From the NCBI GenBank assembly GCA_021325655.1, contig JAJPGT010000096.1, positions 124,001 to 188,000 on the forward strand: a stretch of DNA of 64,000 nt. Reading direction: 5' to 3'. The stretch comes from Pseudomonadota bacterium. GTDB taxonomy: Bacteria; Chloroflexota; UBA6077; JAJPGT01. Positions 57,706 through 63,964 of the stretch are shown in pieces. The notes below the pieces were generated by a model. It did no database searches and was not told the DNA's origin. It saw only the letters and a program-made list of their open reading frames with translations. The translations under genes were made by a program, and so were the position numbers. Within the stretch, counting starts at the first letter, position 1. Each line of letters opens with the position of its first letter.

Positions 57706-57861
57706 GCGGGCGGCACCCGGCGCAGCTCAGCCGAGCTGTTGCCGGAAGAATACCGGCGTCCGCTCCCGGGACGGCGTCGCGGCCGTGGCGCCGCGCGTAA
57801 ACTTGAGCCAGCGCCTGGCGCGGGGCTACACTGTCAGCGTGACCCAGGAGGAACCGCCGGG

Positions 57862-58311
57862 GTGGCCCCCGCCGAGCTTCTACTCGTGGCGGTCCGGTGG
57901 GCGCACGCGATGGCCGCGGTGGCCTGGGTGGGCGGCAACCTCTTTCTCCTCTGGGTGCTCGAGCCCGCGCTGCGGAGCTTCAGTGGCTCCGAGGGCTCCG
58001 GACCGCTCTGGCGGGCGGTTTCCCAGGGCTTTCGCGAGCTGACGGATGCATCGATCATCGTATTCATCATCTCGGGGGCGGTGCTCACGTTCGACCGCCT
58101 GTCGAGCGTCGCAGCCTCGCCCGCGTATGCCGGGGTGCTGGCGGCGAAGCTCGCGCTGGCGCTGGTCGCGTTCTTCCTGGCGGCGCGGCTGCGCCGGGCG
58201 GAACCGGCCCGCCGGCTCTGGCTGGCGCGCTGGCAGGTGGGGCTGGGCGCGCTCATCATCTTGCTAGCAGCAGTGCTGAAGACGCTGTATGAAAGCGGGC
58301 TAACGGGATGA
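57862..58311 (+). CDS. CopD-like membrane protein
   Basis: A 149-residue protein with four hydrophobic helices, starting with LLVAVRWAHAMAAVAWVGGN. The conserved His and Trp-Val-Gly-Gly of CopD/YozB-type proteins are in that first helix; ASIIVFIISGAVLTFDRL and YAGVLAAKLALALVAFFLAA follow. Such proteins handle copper or heme at the membrane. GTG 57862 has AGGAGGAA 9 nt upstream. It overlaps ccmE by four bases (58308-58311), so it is the first gene of the cytochrome c maturation operon. Confidence 0.7.
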   Translation: MAPAELLLVAVRWAHAMAAVAWVGGNLFLLWVLEPALRSFSGSEGSGPLWRAVSQGFRELTDASIIVFIISGAVLTFDRLSSVAASPAYAGVLAAKLALALVAFFLAARLRRAEPARRLWLARWQVGLGALIILLAAVLKTLYESGLTG

Positions 58312-58706
58312 TCCGGCCGAAGGTCCTGGCGGTGGGGGTGGTGCTCGCCATCGCGGTCGCCTACCTCGCGCTGACCAGCCTTCAGACCACTACGGTTTAT
58401 TATCTGACCGTCAGCGAACTGCTGAGCCGTGGCCCGTCGCAGCAGTCCGTGCGTGTCGCCGGTATCGTCGCCCCAGGCAGCATCGCTAAGGATCCGAGCA
58501 GCCTGACGCTTCGCTTCACCGTGCAAGACGCTACGGGGAGCCTCCCAGTCGTGTACACCGGTGGCACGACCCCCGACATCTTCGCCGAGAAGGTGGAGGT
58601 GGTGGCCGAGGGCAAGTACGGCGCAGACGGCACCTTCCACGCGACCACGCTGCTCGCCAAGTGCCCGTCCAAGTTCGAGGGCCAGGTGGCCCAGGCGAAG
58701 AGCTAG
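58308..58706 (+). CDS. ccmE: Cytochrome c maturation protein CcmE (Cys-type variant)
   Basis: A 132-residue membrane-anchored OB-fold heme chaperone (N-terminal helix VLAVGVVLAIAVAYLAL). It carries heme to CcmF/H. Where proteobacterial CcmE has the heme-binding His in HxxxY, here Cys119 and Phe123 form CxxxF (AKCPSKFEG). A Cys in place of His is known from archaeal and deltaproteobacterial CcmE with CxxxY; the Phe at the last position is unusual. It overlaps the CopD-like gene and is directly followed by ccmF. Confidence 0.9.
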   Translation: MIRPKVLAVGVVLAIAVAYLALTSLQTTTVYYLTVSELLSRGPSQQSVRVAGIVAPGSIAKDPSSLTLRFTVQDATGSLPVVYTGGTTPDIFAEKVEVVAEGKYGADGTFHATTLLAKCPSKFEGQVAQAKS

Positions 58707-58709
58707 GGT

Positions 58710-60707
58710 ATGGGCGACCTCGGCCACCTCAGCCTGCTGGGCGCACTGCTCCTGGCCGCCCTGGCCGCCGCGACCTCGTTGCTGGGCGCCTGGCGCGAGC
58801 GTGACGACCTGCTGGAGAGCGGGCGGCGGGCGCTGTATGGCGCCTGCGCGCTGGTAGTGGTCGCGGCGCTCGCCCTGGCGGCAGCGTTCCAGCTCCATGA
58901 CTTCTCGATCCGCTACGTGGCGGAGAACTCCAGCCGCCTGATGTCGCCCCTGGACACGCTGGCCAGCTTCTGGGGCGGCCAGGCCGGCTCGCTGCTGTTC
59001 TGGGCGCTCGGGCTGGCGCTGCTGTCGGCGCTCTCCGTCTGGCGCACCCAGCGCCGCTCCCCCTGGCTCGTCCCGGTGATGGCCGGAACGCTCGCGCTGA
59101 TCCTGCTGTTCTTCCTCGGCATCCTGACGCTCATCGCCAGCCCGTTCGAACGCGTCCCGGTCGCTCCGCCCGACGGCCGGGGGCTGAACCCGATCCTGCT
59201 CGACACCGGGATGCGTATCCACCCGCCGCTGCTGCTATCTGGCTACATGAGCTACAGCGTTCCGTTCGCCATCACGGTCGCGGCGCTGGTGACCGGTCGG
59301 CTCGGCAACGACTGGCTGCGGGCGCTGCGCCCCTGGCTGCTGGCCGCCTGGACGATCCAGGGCTGCGGGCTGCTGGCCGGCGCCTGGTGGGCCTACCACG
59401 TGCTCGGCTGGGGCGGCTACTGGGGCTGGGACCCGGTGGAGAACGTGGCGCTGCTGCCCTGGCTGGTGGCGACCGCGCTGCTGCACTCGGTGATGGTGCA
59501 AGAGCGGCGTGGGATGCTAAAGGTCTGGAACGTCGGGCTGCTGCTGGCGGCGTTCAACCTGTCGATCTTCGGGACGTTCGTCGTCCGCAGCGGGGTGATC
59601 TCCTCGGTCCACTCCTTCGCCCAGTCCGCCATCGGGCCGTACTTCTTCGGCTTCCTCGGCGCTACGCTCGTCGTCACCCTGTCGTTGCTGTTCTACCGGC
59701 TGCCGGACCTCAGGAGCGAGGGCGAGTTCGACGCGCTGGTGTCGCGCGAGTCCAGCTTCCTCTTTAACAACCTGCTGCTGGTGGCGATGACCGCGGCGAC
59801 GTTCTGGGGGACGATCTTCCCGCTCGTCTCCGAAGCGATCCAGGGCACCCGGGTCGCCGTCGGTCCGCCCTACTTCCAGGCGGTCAACGGGCCGATCCTG
59901 CTGGCGCTGCTGCTGCTGATGGGCATTGGGCCGCTGCTCGCCTGGCGCCGCAGCTCCGCGGCCAGCCTCCGCCGCAACTTCCTGGCCCCGATTGCCGTGG
60001 GCCTCGCCAGCGGGCTGGTACTGGTCGCGCTCGGGATGCGCCAGCTCTGGGCGACTGTCGCGTTCGCCGCGGCGGCGTTCGTGTTCATGACGATCACGCA
60101 GGAGTTTTGGCGCGGCGTCCGGGCTCGGATGCGCGCCGGCGAGCCGGCCCCCGTTGCGCTGGTGGGCCTGGTGCGGCGCAACCGGCGACGCTACGGCGGC
60201 TACGTGGTGCACCTCGGGATGGTGTTTGTCGCGCTCGGGATCATCGGCTCCACCTTCTTCCAGCAGGACCACGGGCTGCGGCTGGCGCGCGGCGAGTCCG
60301 CCACGGTCGGCCGCTACACGCTGACGAACGAGGGGCTGTTCCAGGAGACGCAGCCGGGCCGCCAGGAGGTGTACGCCCAGATGGCGGTGCAGGCGGATGG
60401 CGCGCTGCTAGACGTGATCCGTCCGGGCAAGCACACCTACGTGAACTGGGAGCAGCAGCCGACCAGCAGCATCTCGATCACCACCACCTGGCCCTGGCTG
60501 GAGGACCTGTACGTGGTGCTGGTGAGCCCGAACGCGGACGGCTCGGCCAGTCTGCAGGTGTTCGTCAACCCGCTGGTGTCGCTGATCTGGCTCGGCGGGG
60601 TCCTGTTCCTGCTCGGAACGGTCATCGCAGCCTGGCCGGAGCGCCCCCGCCTGGGCACCCCGCGGCCGCTCGTATCCCGCCCCCAGGCGGTGGCGGTGGA
60701 GGCGTAA
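58710..60707 (+). CDS. ccmF: Cytochrome c maturation / heme lyase subunit CcmF
   Basis: A 665-residue integral membrane protein with ~14 hydrophobic segments. It carries the Trp-rich WWD heme-handling loop (YHVLGWGGYWGWDPVENVAL) and His residues in HPPLLLSGYM and in the later transmembrane helices. CcmF together with CcmH attaches heme to apocytochrome c. The C-terminal extracytoplasmic region (TLTNEGLFQETQPGRQEVYA) matches the family. It begins 3 bases after ccmE ends. Confidence 0.95.
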   Translation: MGDLGHLSLLGALLLAALAAATSLLGAWRERDDLLESGRRALYGACALVVVAALALAAAFQLHDFSIRYVAENSSRLMSPLDTLASFWGGQAGSLLFWALGLALLSALSVWRTQRRSPWLVPVMAGTLALILLFFLGILTLIASPFERVPVAPPDGRGLNPILLDTGMRIHPPLLLSGYMSYSVPFAITVAALVTGRLGNDWLRALRPWLLAAWTIQGCGLLAGAWWAYHVLGWGGYWGWDPVENVALLPWLVATALLHSVMVQERRGMLKVWNVGLLLAAFNLSIFGTFVVRSGVISSVHSFAQSAIGPYFFGFLGATLVVTLSLLFYRLPDLRSEGEFDALVSRESSFLFNNLLLVAMTAATFWGTIFPLVSEAIQGTRVAVGPPYFQAVNGPILLALLLLMGIGPLLAWRRSSAASLRRNFLAPIAVGLASGLVLVALGMRQLWATVAFAAAAFVFMTITQEFWRGVRARMRAGEPAPVALVGLVRRNRRRYGGYVVHLGMVFVALGIIGSTFFQQDHGLRLARGESATVGRYTLTNEGLFQETQPGRQEVYAQMAVQADGALLDVIRPGKHTYVNWEQQPTSSISITTTWPWLEDLYVVLVSPNADGSASLQVFVNPLVSLIWLGGVLFLLGTVIAAWPERPRLGTPRPLVSRPQAVAVEA

Positions 60708-60708
60708 G

Positions 60709-61269
60709 GTGCGGCGAGCCCTGAGCGAACGGCAGGCTCCGCGCGGTGCTGGTATCGGACTGGCCGCGAGCACGCTGGCCACGTTGCTGCTCCTGCTGGC
60801 TCTGGGGACGGCCCTGGCGCAGCCGATCACGGACCCGGACACCGACCCCCGGGTGCGCGAGGTGGCCAAGGACCTCCAGTGTCCGGTCTGCCAGAACCTC
60901 TCGGTGGCCGACTCGCCCTCCGGATTGGCCAAGGACATGCGAGCGCTGATCGCCAAGCAGCTCGACGAGGGGCAGACACGGGAGCAGATCGAGCAGTACT
61001 TCGTCGAGCGCTACGGCGAGGGGATTCTGCTCCGCCCCTCGCACCGCGGGTTCACCGGCCTGGTCTGGCTCGGCCCCTGGCTCGCCCTCGGCCTGGGCCT
61101 GGTGCTGGTCGCCCTGACGTTACGCCGCCTCGCCGCGCGGCGTGCCGCGCCCACGATTCAGCCGGTTGCCAGGCCGGAGGCTGACCCGGCGGCTGGGAGC
61201 GGGGAGACGGACCGGTACGAACGCCAGCTCGAGGCGGAGCTGGCGCGGTATCGCGAGCGGGTTGGCTGA
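60709..61269 (+). CDS. ccmH: Cytochrome c maturation thioreductase-like protein CcmH
   Basis: A 186-residue protein. A signal/anchor helix (~residues 18-37) leads into the CcmH domain with CPVC motif LQCPVCQNLS (Cys58, Cys61) and the family stretch DMRALIAKQLDEGQTREQIE, FVERYGEGILLRP. A second membrane helix (~105-127) follows. It reduces apocytochrome CxxCH disulfides. GTG 60709 starts one base after the ccmF stop; the stop overlaps the next gene. Confidence 0.95.
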   Translation: MRRALSERQAPRGAGIGLAASTLATLLLLLALGTALAQPITDPDTDPRVREVAKDLQCPVCQNLSVADSPSGLAKDMRALIAKQLDEGQTREQIEQYFVERYGEGILLRPSHRGFTGLVWLGPWLALGLGLVLVALTLRRLAARRAAPTIQPVARPEADPAAGSGETDRYERQLEAELARYRERVG

Positions 61270-62651
61270 TGAGCACCGACGCCTTCGCCATCCTGGGAGT
61301 CGTGGTGGTCGTCGCGACGCTGCTGTACGCCGTTCAGCCGCTGCTCCGGCCCGGCCGGCGCCGGCCCGGCGAGCGCGCGCGGATTGCCGCCCGCGCCGAG
61401 GAAGATCAGCTCCTGGACGAGCGGGAGGCCGCCTACCGGGCGCTGGCGGAGCTGGACCTGGACCGCCAGCTCGGCAACCTGGACGAGGCGGACTACCGCG
61501 ACCTGCGGGAGCGCTACCGCCAGCGCGCGGTCGCGGTGCTGCGGGCGCTGGATGGACACGAGCCGGAGCTGGACGAGCAGATCGAGCAGGCGGTGGCGCT
61601 GCACCGGGTCGCCCGCCGCGAAGAGGCGAGCCGCGGCGTGCTGGCCCAGCGCGCCGCGACCCAGCCGCGGGTGCCGCGGCGTGTCGGCGGCCGCGACCTG
61701 CCCGAGCGACCGGTTGCGGAGCCCGGGCGGCGGCAGACCTGGGCCTGGATCGCGCTCGGCGGCGTCTTCATGTTCGCCGGCGCTGCGCTCACCCTTTACC
61801 TGGCGTTCAGCCGCGACCACGCCGCCCAGACGCCACTGGCCACGGTTGATGTCGCCGCTCCGCGCGGCCTGGCCGCCACCGCCGGGCCGGCGCCGCTGCT
61901 GTATCTCGGCGCCGCCGATGGGCTGCTGCGCAGCCGCGACCTCGGCCGCACCTGGGTGCCGGTCGCCGAGGTAGATAGCGCGGCGCGAGCCGTGCTCGCC
62001 AGCCCGGACGGGACGCAGCCCGTCTACGCCGCGACCGAGACGGCGATCGAGCGCAGCCCCGACGGCAGCCGCTGGGAGCGGACAGGCCCCGCCCCGAGCC
62101 CGCGGCTCGTCGCCCTCGCCCACGGCAGCCGGCCCGACACGCTATATGCCGCCAGCGACGACGGCAGCCTGTACCGCAGCCCGGACGGCGGCGCGACCTG
62201 GACCACGCTGCCCGGGAAGGCCCCGGCGCCGCTGACCGCGCTGGCGGTGCTGCCCGGCGCGCCCGACCTGCTTGTCGTGGGCACCGACGGCCAGGGCGTG
62301 CTCGCGTCCGAGGACGACGGTGCCACCTGGCACGCCGCCAACGGCTTCGCCAACGGCCTGCTCGACAGCACCCACGTCCGTGCCCTACTGTTCGACCCGA
62401 ACAGCGGCGACACCGCCACTGCCCCGAACGGGCGCACGTTCCACGGTACCCTGTACGTGGGGACCGAATTCGGCCTGTCGCGCTCGCTCGATGCCGGGGC
62501 GAGCTGGTCGCGCCTGCCGTTTCACGGCGACGTGCGAGTGCTCGGCGCGGGGGTTGGCAACGGCGGCCCCGCCCCGCTGTACCTGCTCGACGCGCAGTCG
62601 CGGCTGTACCGCAGCTTCGACCGGGGGATCACATGGCCCGGCGCGTCGTGA
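61269..62651 (+). CDS. CcmI-like membrane protein fused to an Asp-box beta-propeller
   Basis: A 460-residue protein. Residues 5-24 form a membrane helix, 38-95 a charged helical module (YRALAELDLDRQLGNLDEAD) like the N-terminus of CcmI, and 158-180 a second membrane helix. The rest is extracytoplasmic with six Asp-box (BNR-type, S-x-D-x-G-x-T-W) motifs near residues 222-229, 263-269, 304-311, 347-354, 406-413 and 449-456, implying a propeller. CcmI normally carries TPR repeats that hold apocytochrome; here a propeller takes their place. ATG 61269 overlaps ccmH by one base (TGATG) and the 3' end overlaps the next gene by 19 bases. Confidence 0.75.
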   Translation: MSTDAFAILGVVVVVATLLYAVQPLLRPGRRRPGERARIAARAEEDQLLDEREAAYRALAELDLDRQLGNLDEADYRDLRERYRQRAVAVLRALDGHEPELDEQIEQAVALHRVARREEASRGVLAQRAATQPRVPRRVGGRDLPERPVAEPGRRQTWAWIALGGVFMFAGAALTLYLAFSRDHAAQTPLATVDVAAPRGLAATAGPAPLLYLGAADGLLRSRDLGRTWVPVAEVDSAARAVLASPDGTQPVYAATETAIERSPDGSRWERTGPAPSPRLVALAHGSRPDTLYAASDDGSLYRSPDGGATWTTLPGKAPAPLTALAVLPGAPDLLVVGTDGQGVLASEDDGATWHAANGFANGLLDSTHVRALLFDPNSGDTATAPNGRTFHGTLYVGTEFGLSRSLDAGASWSRLPFHGDVRVLGAGVGNGGPAPLYLLDAQSRLYRSFDRGITWPGAS

Positions 62652-63964
62652 CCAGGCTGATGCGTCGGCGACTCGGGCTGGCGGCGCTCGGCGGCCTGGT
62701 CGCACTGTGCCTGCTGGGCTGGCTGGTGGGCACGGCCTCGGCGCAAGCGACCGGAACGCTGGACGGCACGGTGACACAGGGTACCCCTGGGGGTGGCTCG
62801 GTCTCCGGGCTGCCGGTGCTGCTGCTCGTCTTCAAGGACGAGCAGAAGGTGGACGAGCAGCACACGACGACCGACGTGAATGGGCACTTCCGCTTCGAGG
62901 GGCTGGACCCGGCGCCAGAGCGCATCTACTTCCCGGTGGTGGACTACCAGGGGGTCTCGTACTACTCTGACCCGCTGACCTTCAAGGACAGCACTGCGCA
63001 GTCGGTACAGATCACCATCTACGAGCCGACCCCGAGCGACGAGAAGATCGCCGTTCCCCGGGCGAACATGATCGTCACCGGGGCTGAGCCCGACCGGCTG
63101 TACCTGATGGAGATGGGTGTGGTCGCCAACAGCGGCGACCACACCTACACCGGGGCAGAGACGCTCCACTTCCCTCTTCCGGCCGGGGCGGAGAACTTTG
63201 CCCCGCGCTTCGGCTTCCTGGCGAACAGCGTCAGCCAGCGCCCGGATGGGTTCGTGGTCAACGGCCCGGTGCTGCCCGGCGAGCACCAGCTCGCCTACAG
63301 CTACGAGCTGCCAGCCAGCGGCCAGGAGGTCGTCCTCACCCGGCGAATCGCGTACCCCACCGAGACGTTCTCGCTGTTCGTCCCGCTCCAGGACGGGCTA
63401 CAGGTGAGCAGCCCGCAGCTTTCCGACGACGGGACGCGCGATCTGGGCGGCCAGACCTACCGGGTGTTTAGCGCCAGCCACCTGGCGCGGGGCGAGCAGG
63501 TGAGCATGCGCTTCAGCGGTCTACCCGCTATGCCCGGCGCCACCGCGCAGCGGCTGGGATACCTGCTGCTGGTCGCCGGCGCGGCGATCTCCATCGCCGC
63601 GCTCGTCTTCGCCTGGCGCCGGGGCGCGACCACGCCAGCCGCCGCGCCCGCGGCAGAGCCCGCCGCGGCGCGCCGCGAGCGGCTGCTGGACATCCTGGCC
63701 GACCTGGACGAGCGCTACGAGGCCGGGGAGCTGGACCAGGCCGAGTACCAGCGCTCGCGCGACGTCGCCAAACGCCGCCTGGTGGCGCTGCTGCGCGAGC
63801 ATCCCGCGCTAGCGGAGCCAAGCGCCGCGGCTCAGGTCGGAATTCGGGATTCGGCAGTCGGCGTTCGATCCCCCGATGGCGTTCGATCCCCCGATTCCGA
63901 ACCCCGAACCCCCAATGGCGAACTGGAGCCAGACGCAGCACAGGCCGAGCGCCGCGGGCGGTAG
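62633..63964 (+). CDS. Membrane-anchored beta-sandwich protein of the ccm cluster
   Basis: A 443-residue exported protein. Signal peptide (AALGGLVALCLLGWLVGTAS) leads to a CnaB/carboxypeptidase-regulatory-like domain (TTTDVNGHFRFEGLDP), a second beta-rich region (LHFPLPAGAENFAPRFGFLA) and a membrane helix at ~316-336. The cytoplasmic tail has a short helical module (LLDILADLDERYEAGELDQA), similar to the one in the preceding protein. The last ~35 residues are encoded by a repetitive element containing an 18-base tandem duplication (63860-63895). ATG 62633 overlaps the upstream gene by 19 bases, so the two are probably cotranslated. Function unknown; a role in cytochrome assembly is an inference. 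Confidence 0.65.
   Translation: MARRVVTRLMRRRLGLAALGGLVALCLLGWLVGTASAQATGTLDGTVTQGTPGGGSVSGLPVLLLVFKDEQKVDEQHTTTDVNGHFRFEGLDPAPERIYFPVVDYQGVSYYSDPLTFKDSTAQSVQITIYEPTPSDEKIAVPRANMIVTGAEPDRLYLMEMGVVANSGDHTYTGAETLHFPLPAGAENFAPRFGFLANSVSQRPDGFVVNGPVLPGEHQLAYSYELPASGQEVVLTRRIAYPTETFSLFVPLQDGLQVSSPQLSDDGTRDLGGQTYRVFSASHLARGEQVSMRFSGLPAMPGATAQRLGYLLLVAGAAISIAALVFAWRRGATTPAAAPAAEPAAARRERLLDILADLDERYEAGELDQAEYQRSRDVAKRRLVALLREHPALAEPSAAAQVGIRDSAVGVRSPDGVRSPDSEPRTPNGELEPDAAQAERRGR
63838..63909 (+). repeat. REP-like element with an 18-bp tandem duplication inside the last gene
   Basis: GGCGTTCGATCCCCCGAT occurs twice in tandem (63860-63877 and 63878-63895). It is flanked by imperfect inverted copies (ATTCGGGATTCGG near 63843-63855 and its partner near 63895-63907). 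The whole segment is translated in frame, adding a Pro/Arg/Asp tail. It may be a small palindromic insertion. Confidence 0.5.

Follow-up and report, generated by a model that had tools for sequence, protein, structure and literature searches.

Near its 3' end the window, by which we mean the whole 64,000-nucleotide stretch of DNA that was analysed, enters an intact operon of the order ccmE-F-H-I-X-A-B-C. A 460-aa open reading frame, here called I, lies in it between ccmH and a further gene, X. The start ATG of I shares one nucleotide with the ccmH stop codon (TGATG), and the 3' end of I overlaps gene X by 19 nt. The ccmA, ccmB and ccmC genes are found 3' of X, past the end of the window; ccmB was recognised by its Pfam profile (PF03379, 2.9e-33), and ccmA and ccmC were called by reading the ORF translations, with no profile search. 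All core genes of System I (CcmA, B, C, E, F and H) are thus present, and the operon is therefore a System I operon. Eight matches to c-type cytochrome domains, which are possible substrates, were found in the same genome. The features of the locus are as follows.

57739..58311, plus strand: CopD-like small membrane protein, 5' of ccmE (weak PF05425 / PF06181)
58308..58706, plus strand: ccmE, Cys-type, with CPSKF, the System I* signature (PF03100, 2.8e-28; motif read from the sequence)
58710..60707, plus strand: ccmF heme lyase (PF16327, 1.6e-61; PF01578, 3.7e-32)
60709..61269, plus strand: ccmH with the LQCPVC motif (PF03918, 1.5e-33)
61269..62651, plus strand: I, CcmI-like protein with a propeller ectodomain, 460 aa (profiles, AlphaFold2)
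61275..61346, plus strand: TM helix 1 of I, residues 3-26 (hydropathy, AlphaFold2)
61365..61661, plus strand: predicted cytosolic helical hairpin, CcmI-1-like, residues 33-67 and 73-131 (AlphaFold2, TIGR03142, hhalign)
61728..61823, plus strand: TM helix 2, residues 154-185 (hydropathy, AlphaFold2)
61836..62642, plus strand: six-bladed Asp-box beta-propeller, predicted extracytoplasmic, residues 190-458 (AlphaFold2, Foldseek, BNR)
61932..61955, plus strand: Asp box 1, SRDLGRTW, residues 222-229 (sequence; S, D, G and W invariant in the alignment of relatives)
62055..62075, plus strand: Asp box 2, degenerate, SPDGSRW, residues 263-269 (sequence, alignment)
62178..62201, plus strand: Asp box 3, SPDGGATW, residues 304-311 (sequence, alignment)
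62307..62330, plus strand: Asp box 4, SEDDGATW, residues 347-354 (sequence, alignment)
62337..62447, plus strand: conserved stretch specific to the family, ANGF-NG-L...SGD...G...G, residues 357-393, located between blades 4 and 5 (invariant alignment columns)
62484..62507, plus strand: Asp box 5, SLDAGASW, residues 406-413 (sequence, alignment)
62613..62636, plus strand: Asp box 6, SFDRGITW, residues 449-456 (sequence, alignment)
62633..63964, plus strand: gene X, signal/TM, beta-rich ectodomain, TM and CcmI-like hairpin predicted to be cytosolic (AlphaFold2, pLDDT 81.2)

The CopD-like gene is kept in many ccm operons of Chloroflexota, where it may have a part in heme or copper handling.

Domain structure of I and its relation to known families

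The AlphaFold2 model of I (mean pLDDT 85.8, pTM 0.65) consists of a TM helix, a helical hairpin, a second TM helix and a propeller of six blades, which carries six Asp boxes. The helices span residues 3-26, 33-67, 73-131 and 154-185, and the propeller, most of it modelled at pLDDT >90, extends from about residue 190 to 458. The initial annotation had placed a membrane/helical module followed by six Asp boxes, and a likely beta-propeller, in the CcmI slot of a ccmE-ccmF-ccmH operon; the ORF, the Pfam profiles and the structure prediction agree on this arrangement. One box of the form S-x-D-x-G-x-T/S-W is found in each of the six blades, as in Asp-box (BNR) beta-propellers, and the profile matches accord with this assignment (Pfam BNR, 1.1e-8, 34.3 bits against a cut-off of 27; Sortilin-Vps10, 9.2e-8). 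The best Foldseek matches include the six-bladed Pizza6 and PknD (TMt about 0.7), DAIP and Ycf48. There are no Cys residues in I. The invariant columns single out residues 357-393 as the most promising candidate for a functional surface of the propeller, and we propose that they may form its client-binding face.

In canonical CcmI a cytoplasmic region connects two TM helices, and the second of these is followed by TPRs in the periplasm, to which apocytochrome binds (PMC3884852). I resembles CcmI/CycH in its slot after ccmH, its two TM helices, the profile-homologous hairpin between them and the single ectodomain past the second TM helix. It differs in that this ectodomain is a six-bladed Asp-box propeller and not a set of TPRs, and in that the N-terminal module of the window protein falls below the NCBIfam cut-off. 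By analogy with CcmI, the hairpin would be cytosolic and the propeller extracytoplasmic. In E. coli the counterpart of CcmI/CycH is the C-terminal part of CcmH, with NrfG corresponding to the TPR part.

The CcmI-like character of the N-terminus, also claimed at the outset, was examined with the CcmI family profile TIGR03142 and by profile-profile comparison. The match of the window protein alone (E 0.0047 for the whole chain, 0.0013 for its N-terminal part; 17.2-19.0 bits) lies below the curated cut-off of 29.3 bits. At the family level, TIGR03142 matches 23 of 32 Chloroflexota slot proteins (best 6.4e-8), and two homologs that carry the propeller exceed the cut-off, L079 with 30.6 bits and L071 with 29.6 bits. 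TPR-type CcmI proteins with the layout TM-hairpin-TM-TPR follow ccmH in other Chloroflexota (groups f22 and f41), among them L118, L119 and L097. When the N-terminal modules of propeller-type proteins were aligned by hhalign with three TPR-type proteins, the probability was 96.9% (E 1.4e-10) across TM1 and the hairpin, against at most 0.1% for eight column-shuffled controls and below 3% for CcmH, CcmE and CopD-like profiles. On the strength of these profile comparisons and of the TPR-type CcmI of other Chloroflexota, the membrane half of I and the N-terminal domain of CcmI are homologous, and the ectodomain has been exchanged. By its membrane half, its operon slot next to ccmF and ccmH and its TM-helical region-TM layout, whose middle part is presumed to face the cytoplasm, I is a CcmI. 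No TPR match was found in I, where the propeller stands in the place of the periplasmic TPR domain, and I is therefore classed as a CcmI variant and not as a canonical CcmI. A canonical CcmI TPR domain encoded elsewhere was also considered and rejected: PF23914 has no match over its cut-off in this genome.

Among Asp-box propellers, I invites comparison with Ycf48/HCF136, a photosystem II assembly factor that is likewise a membrane-associated extracytoplasmic propeller. The C-terminal tail of D1 wraps around the Ycf48 propeller (PMC10403576). Two fused homologs of I, L071 and L149, pass the cut-off of the Pfam Ycf48 family PF14870 (L071 with 39.9 against 27 bits). I itself differs from Ycf48 in having six blades and not seven, in being carried by a two-TM hairpin module where Ycf48 of cyanobacteria is lipid-anchored, and in its pathway. 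No invariant Arg that would answer to the Arg patch of Ycf48 was found among 20 relatives; with this and its six blades, I falls outside the Ycf48 family. The closest family-level sequence match of the propeller is to another group of Asp-box propellers, the F510_1955 family (NF045728, 5.6e-24). The score of 84.7 bits is below the cut-off of 175, and the NF045728 model omits the N-terminal TM-hairpin module. Reading the propeller as a glycosidase on the basis of this match was rejected, as the score is far under the cut-off and the catalytic residues are unconserved: sialidases and BNR glycosidases use an Arg triad with a Tyr, a Glu and an Asp, and no Arg, Glu, Tyr or His is invariant among the 20 relatives.

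Some Chloroflexi are reported to have a Cys-type CcmE (PMC3601427). The window shares with this System I* the CPSKF motif of its CcmE, and departs from it in that CcmH is present and in that the propeller occurs independently of the Cys type. CcmE of the fused operons has Cys in G000 and G058 and His in G006, G041, G066, G090 and G104 (KHGPEF and others); fused operons with the His type occur in groups f24, f36, f7 and f16. The idea that the propeller is tied to Cys-type CcmE was thus rejected, since fused operons carry both types.

Gene X, which has little or no Pfam annotation, also contains a part that resembles CcmI. Its AlphaFold2 model shows an N-terminal helix, a confident beta-rich ectodomain, a TM helix and a helical hairpin predicted to be cytosolic. 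The hairpin matches TIGR03142 weakly (E 0.0016) and the hairpin of I with an hhalign probability of 30.8% (E 5e-4). The best Foldseek matches of X are ribophorin I/Ost1 chains of oligosaccharyltransferase (E 1e-9, with low TM scores). Of 71 ccm loci 50 contain X, and among the 20 propeller loci it is found in 16; for at least two of the four that lack it, L062 and L070, the contig stops at the propeller gene or a short way past it. X went undetected in those TPR-type operons that we examined, and it recurs as a downstream partner in the majority of Chloroflexota ccm operons without a TPR-type CcmI. We amend the description of the locus by adding that X, with its TM helix, CcmI-like hairpin and beta-rich ectodomain, may share the CcmI job as a second half of the CcmI function.

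Occurrence of the fusion and other forms of the slot protein

We searched 121 genomes, detected CcmH in 73 of them and mapped their ccm regions. The propeller fusion was found directly after ccmH in at least 21 sampled Chloroflexota genomes from eight family-level groups (f1, f5, f7, f14, f16, f24, f33 and f36), as well as in further named MAGs. The fused proteins recur at about 25-40% identity, occupy the same operon position and are encoded in a continuous frame. Because the same architecture and position recur in many independent genomes, the fusion is neither chance nor an assembly chimera. Some genomes have two or three ccmH/ccm loci of differing type: G010 (L068, L089), G013 (L095, L109) and G021 (L060, L126, L130).

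The family was also sought in 84,980 species genomes using two conserved motifs, one of them ANGF-NG-L. The scan recovered 29 close Chloroflexota loci, and ccmF and ccmH lie immediately 5' of the propeller gene in 23 of these. Three of the other six begin at a contig edge, and three represent the detached genes of group f11 described below. Matches outside Chloroflexota are weaker and align over the propeller only, with the weak exception of L190, whose alignment reaches a little beyond it on the upstream side.

Two changes suffice to explain the fused trait on the CcmF tree, compared with about 18 when labels are shuffled. A tree in which all fused rows form a single clade loses 0.07 log-likelihood units and is not rejected (p-AU 0.50). 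The fusion has therefore long been inherited together with the ccm operon, and this co-inheritance is the main evidence for a role of the propeller in cytochrome c maturation. The tree of the propellers themselves is poorly resolved, as their sequences are short and divergent, those of f5 and f33 among the divergent ones; the data are thus compatible with a single fusion event, which they do not prove. Propeller-type CcmI is real and conserved over family-level groups. In the open-access literature searched we found neither a description of a link between Ccm and propellers in Chloroflexota nor any Ccm apparatus of this build, in line with the impression of novelty expressed in the initial annotation.

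That annotation had also spoken of a propeller instead of TPRs. The statement holds relative to canonical CcmI, but within the lineage it has to be qualified: in most of the remaining Chloroflexota groups the slot protein has 110-200 aa and consists of TM1 and the hairpin only, with no ectodomain at all. The propeller is thus inessential for a CcmI-like part. Since the slot protein of these sister groups is only a TM helix and a hairpin, the holding of apocytochrome must there be either dispensable or performed by another protein, such as X. Zinc-ribbon families match 13 of 32 sampled slot proteins. The ribbons of the short CcmI-like proteins are C-terminal and predicted to be cytosolic (L129, L126, L088, L124, L111, L113 and others).

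In group f11, the ccm operon encodes a short slot protein with a zinc ribbon, and the propeller is encoded by a separate gene elsewhere. The detached gene specifies a double zinc ribbon, a TM helix and an ANGF-type propeller (L158 3456-5828, L160 4399-6885, L162 4474-6864, and L003). It is adjoined by a homolog of the CopD-like gene; at the ccm operons of f11 no such homolog was detected. In a Dehalococcoidia genome from Baikal (L149 5995-7455), one chain comprises a TM helix, hairpin, zinc ribbon, second TM helix and propeller. The f11 and L149 arrangements form a bridge between the different kinds of slot protein and connect the detached propeller with the Ccm system. Asp-box propellers abound in Chloroflexota. 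Contig 16 of the present genome (L133 2558-6918) contains tandem genes for TM-anchored Asp-box propellers next to genes for a cytochrome c and a multicopper-oxidase-like protein, and one of these propeller frames looks broken into pieces.

Possible function of the propeller

The fold of I, its TM helices, the homology of its N-terminal half, its position in the operon, its conservation and its co-inheritance with CcmF are shown by computation. The conserved membrane half suggests docking as in CcmI, and the position of the ectodomain, by analogy with proteobacterial CcmI, points to apocytochrome c as the client. We consider it probable, with some reservation, that I is a variant CcmI of the CcmF-CcmH-CcmI heme-ligation complex in which a propeller takes the place of the TPRs and holds apocytochrome c. 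In the most likely course of events, the TM1-hairpin-TM2 module would dock I on CcmF/CcmH in the membrane, and the propeller, lying outside the cytoplasm, would bind unfolded apocytochrome c. The contact would probably be made through a flexible terminal segment of the cytochrome placed on or around the propeller, such that the CXXCH site is kept presented to the WWD site of CcmF and the thiols of CcmH for heme attachment. A parallel may be seen in photosystem II assembly, where the Ycf48 propeller holds the unfolded C-terminal tail of D1 at a cofactor site. Asp-box propellers in general bind many kinds of ligand. More tentatively, and in our estimate short of an even chance, a lineage of Chloroflexota may possess a distinct cytochrome c synthase, in which a propeller chaperone (I) replaces the TPR apocytochrome chaperone and is paired with the dedicated ectodomain protein X, the hairpin of I, which often bears a zinc ribbon in relatives, linking heme ligation to a cytosolic partner.

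The strongest competitor, which we regard as possible but rather unlikely, retains I as a CcmI-type subunit and makes the propeller a scaffold that clamps CcmF, CcmH, CcmE or the ectodomain of X, or shields the heme site, while X, or CcmF/CcmH on their own, would take care of the apocytochrome. It gains from the wide occurrence of X, with its own beta-rich ectodomain and CcmI-like hairpin, from the likeness of X to ribophorin I/Ost1 and from the sister groups whose I has no ectodomain. X, however, occurs both with and without the propeller and so is no simple substitute for it, and the canonical CcmI ectodomain at this position binds apocytochrome (PMC3884852), which favours substrate binding by its replacement. 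The likeness of the N-terminal half might also be that of a generic anchor of a TM helix and a helical hairpin, in the style of SHOCT or zinc-ribbon proteins, which would make I a Chloroflexota-specific Ccm accessory factor and not an ortholog of CcmI. The alignment is indeed limited to TM1 and about 60 hairpin residues, the window protein is under the TIGR03142 cut-off, a related hairpin is found in X and many short forms bear zinc ribbons. Against these points stand the operon slot shared with CcmI, the two propeller-fused homologs over the CcmI cut-off, the hhalign result with its clean controls and the TM-hairpin-TM layout of the TPR-type CcmI of the phylum, and we judge a generic anchor improbable.

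It is still less probable that the propeller serves outside cytochrome c maturation, for example in copper or heme stress, in connection with envelope carbohydrate or as a BNR glycosidase, and is fused to the membrane module for localisation only. The best NCBIfam match bears the name 'F510_1955 family glycosylhydrolase', the paralogous TM-propellers of contig 16 adjoin a multicopper-oxidase-like gene and a cytochrome c, and CopD-like genes lie near fused and detached propellers alike. But the bit score is less than half of the family cut-off, a sialidase-type site would need an invariant Arg, Glu, Tyr or His, of which the family has none, and the fusion tracks the CcmF tree with almost no scatter. 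An accidental joining of two genes by sequencing, assembly or gene calling would be conceivable in a multi-contig draft assembly with an estimated contamination of 7.8%; the continuous frame in so many sampled genomes and MAGs, at such low identity, makes it negligible, and we rejected it. We thus retain the apocytochrome-holding variant of CcmI as our preferred reading.

Opinions differ on what the TPR domain of CcmI does: E. coli can dispense with it, and Rhodobacter requires it (PMC3601427). Propeller-type CcmI bears on the question of how apocytochrome c is brought before CcmF in System I. A natural swap, by which one membrane module has come to bear an unrelated fold, sets the conserved part, the hairpin with its presumed docking function, apart from the exchangeable part, the putative holder, and the coexistence of propeller-type and TPR-type CcmI within one phylum amounts to a domain-swap experiment that evolution has already carried out. 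Asp-box propellers, known as assembly factors through Ycf48, would moreover have such a part in a second cofactor-insertion pathway.
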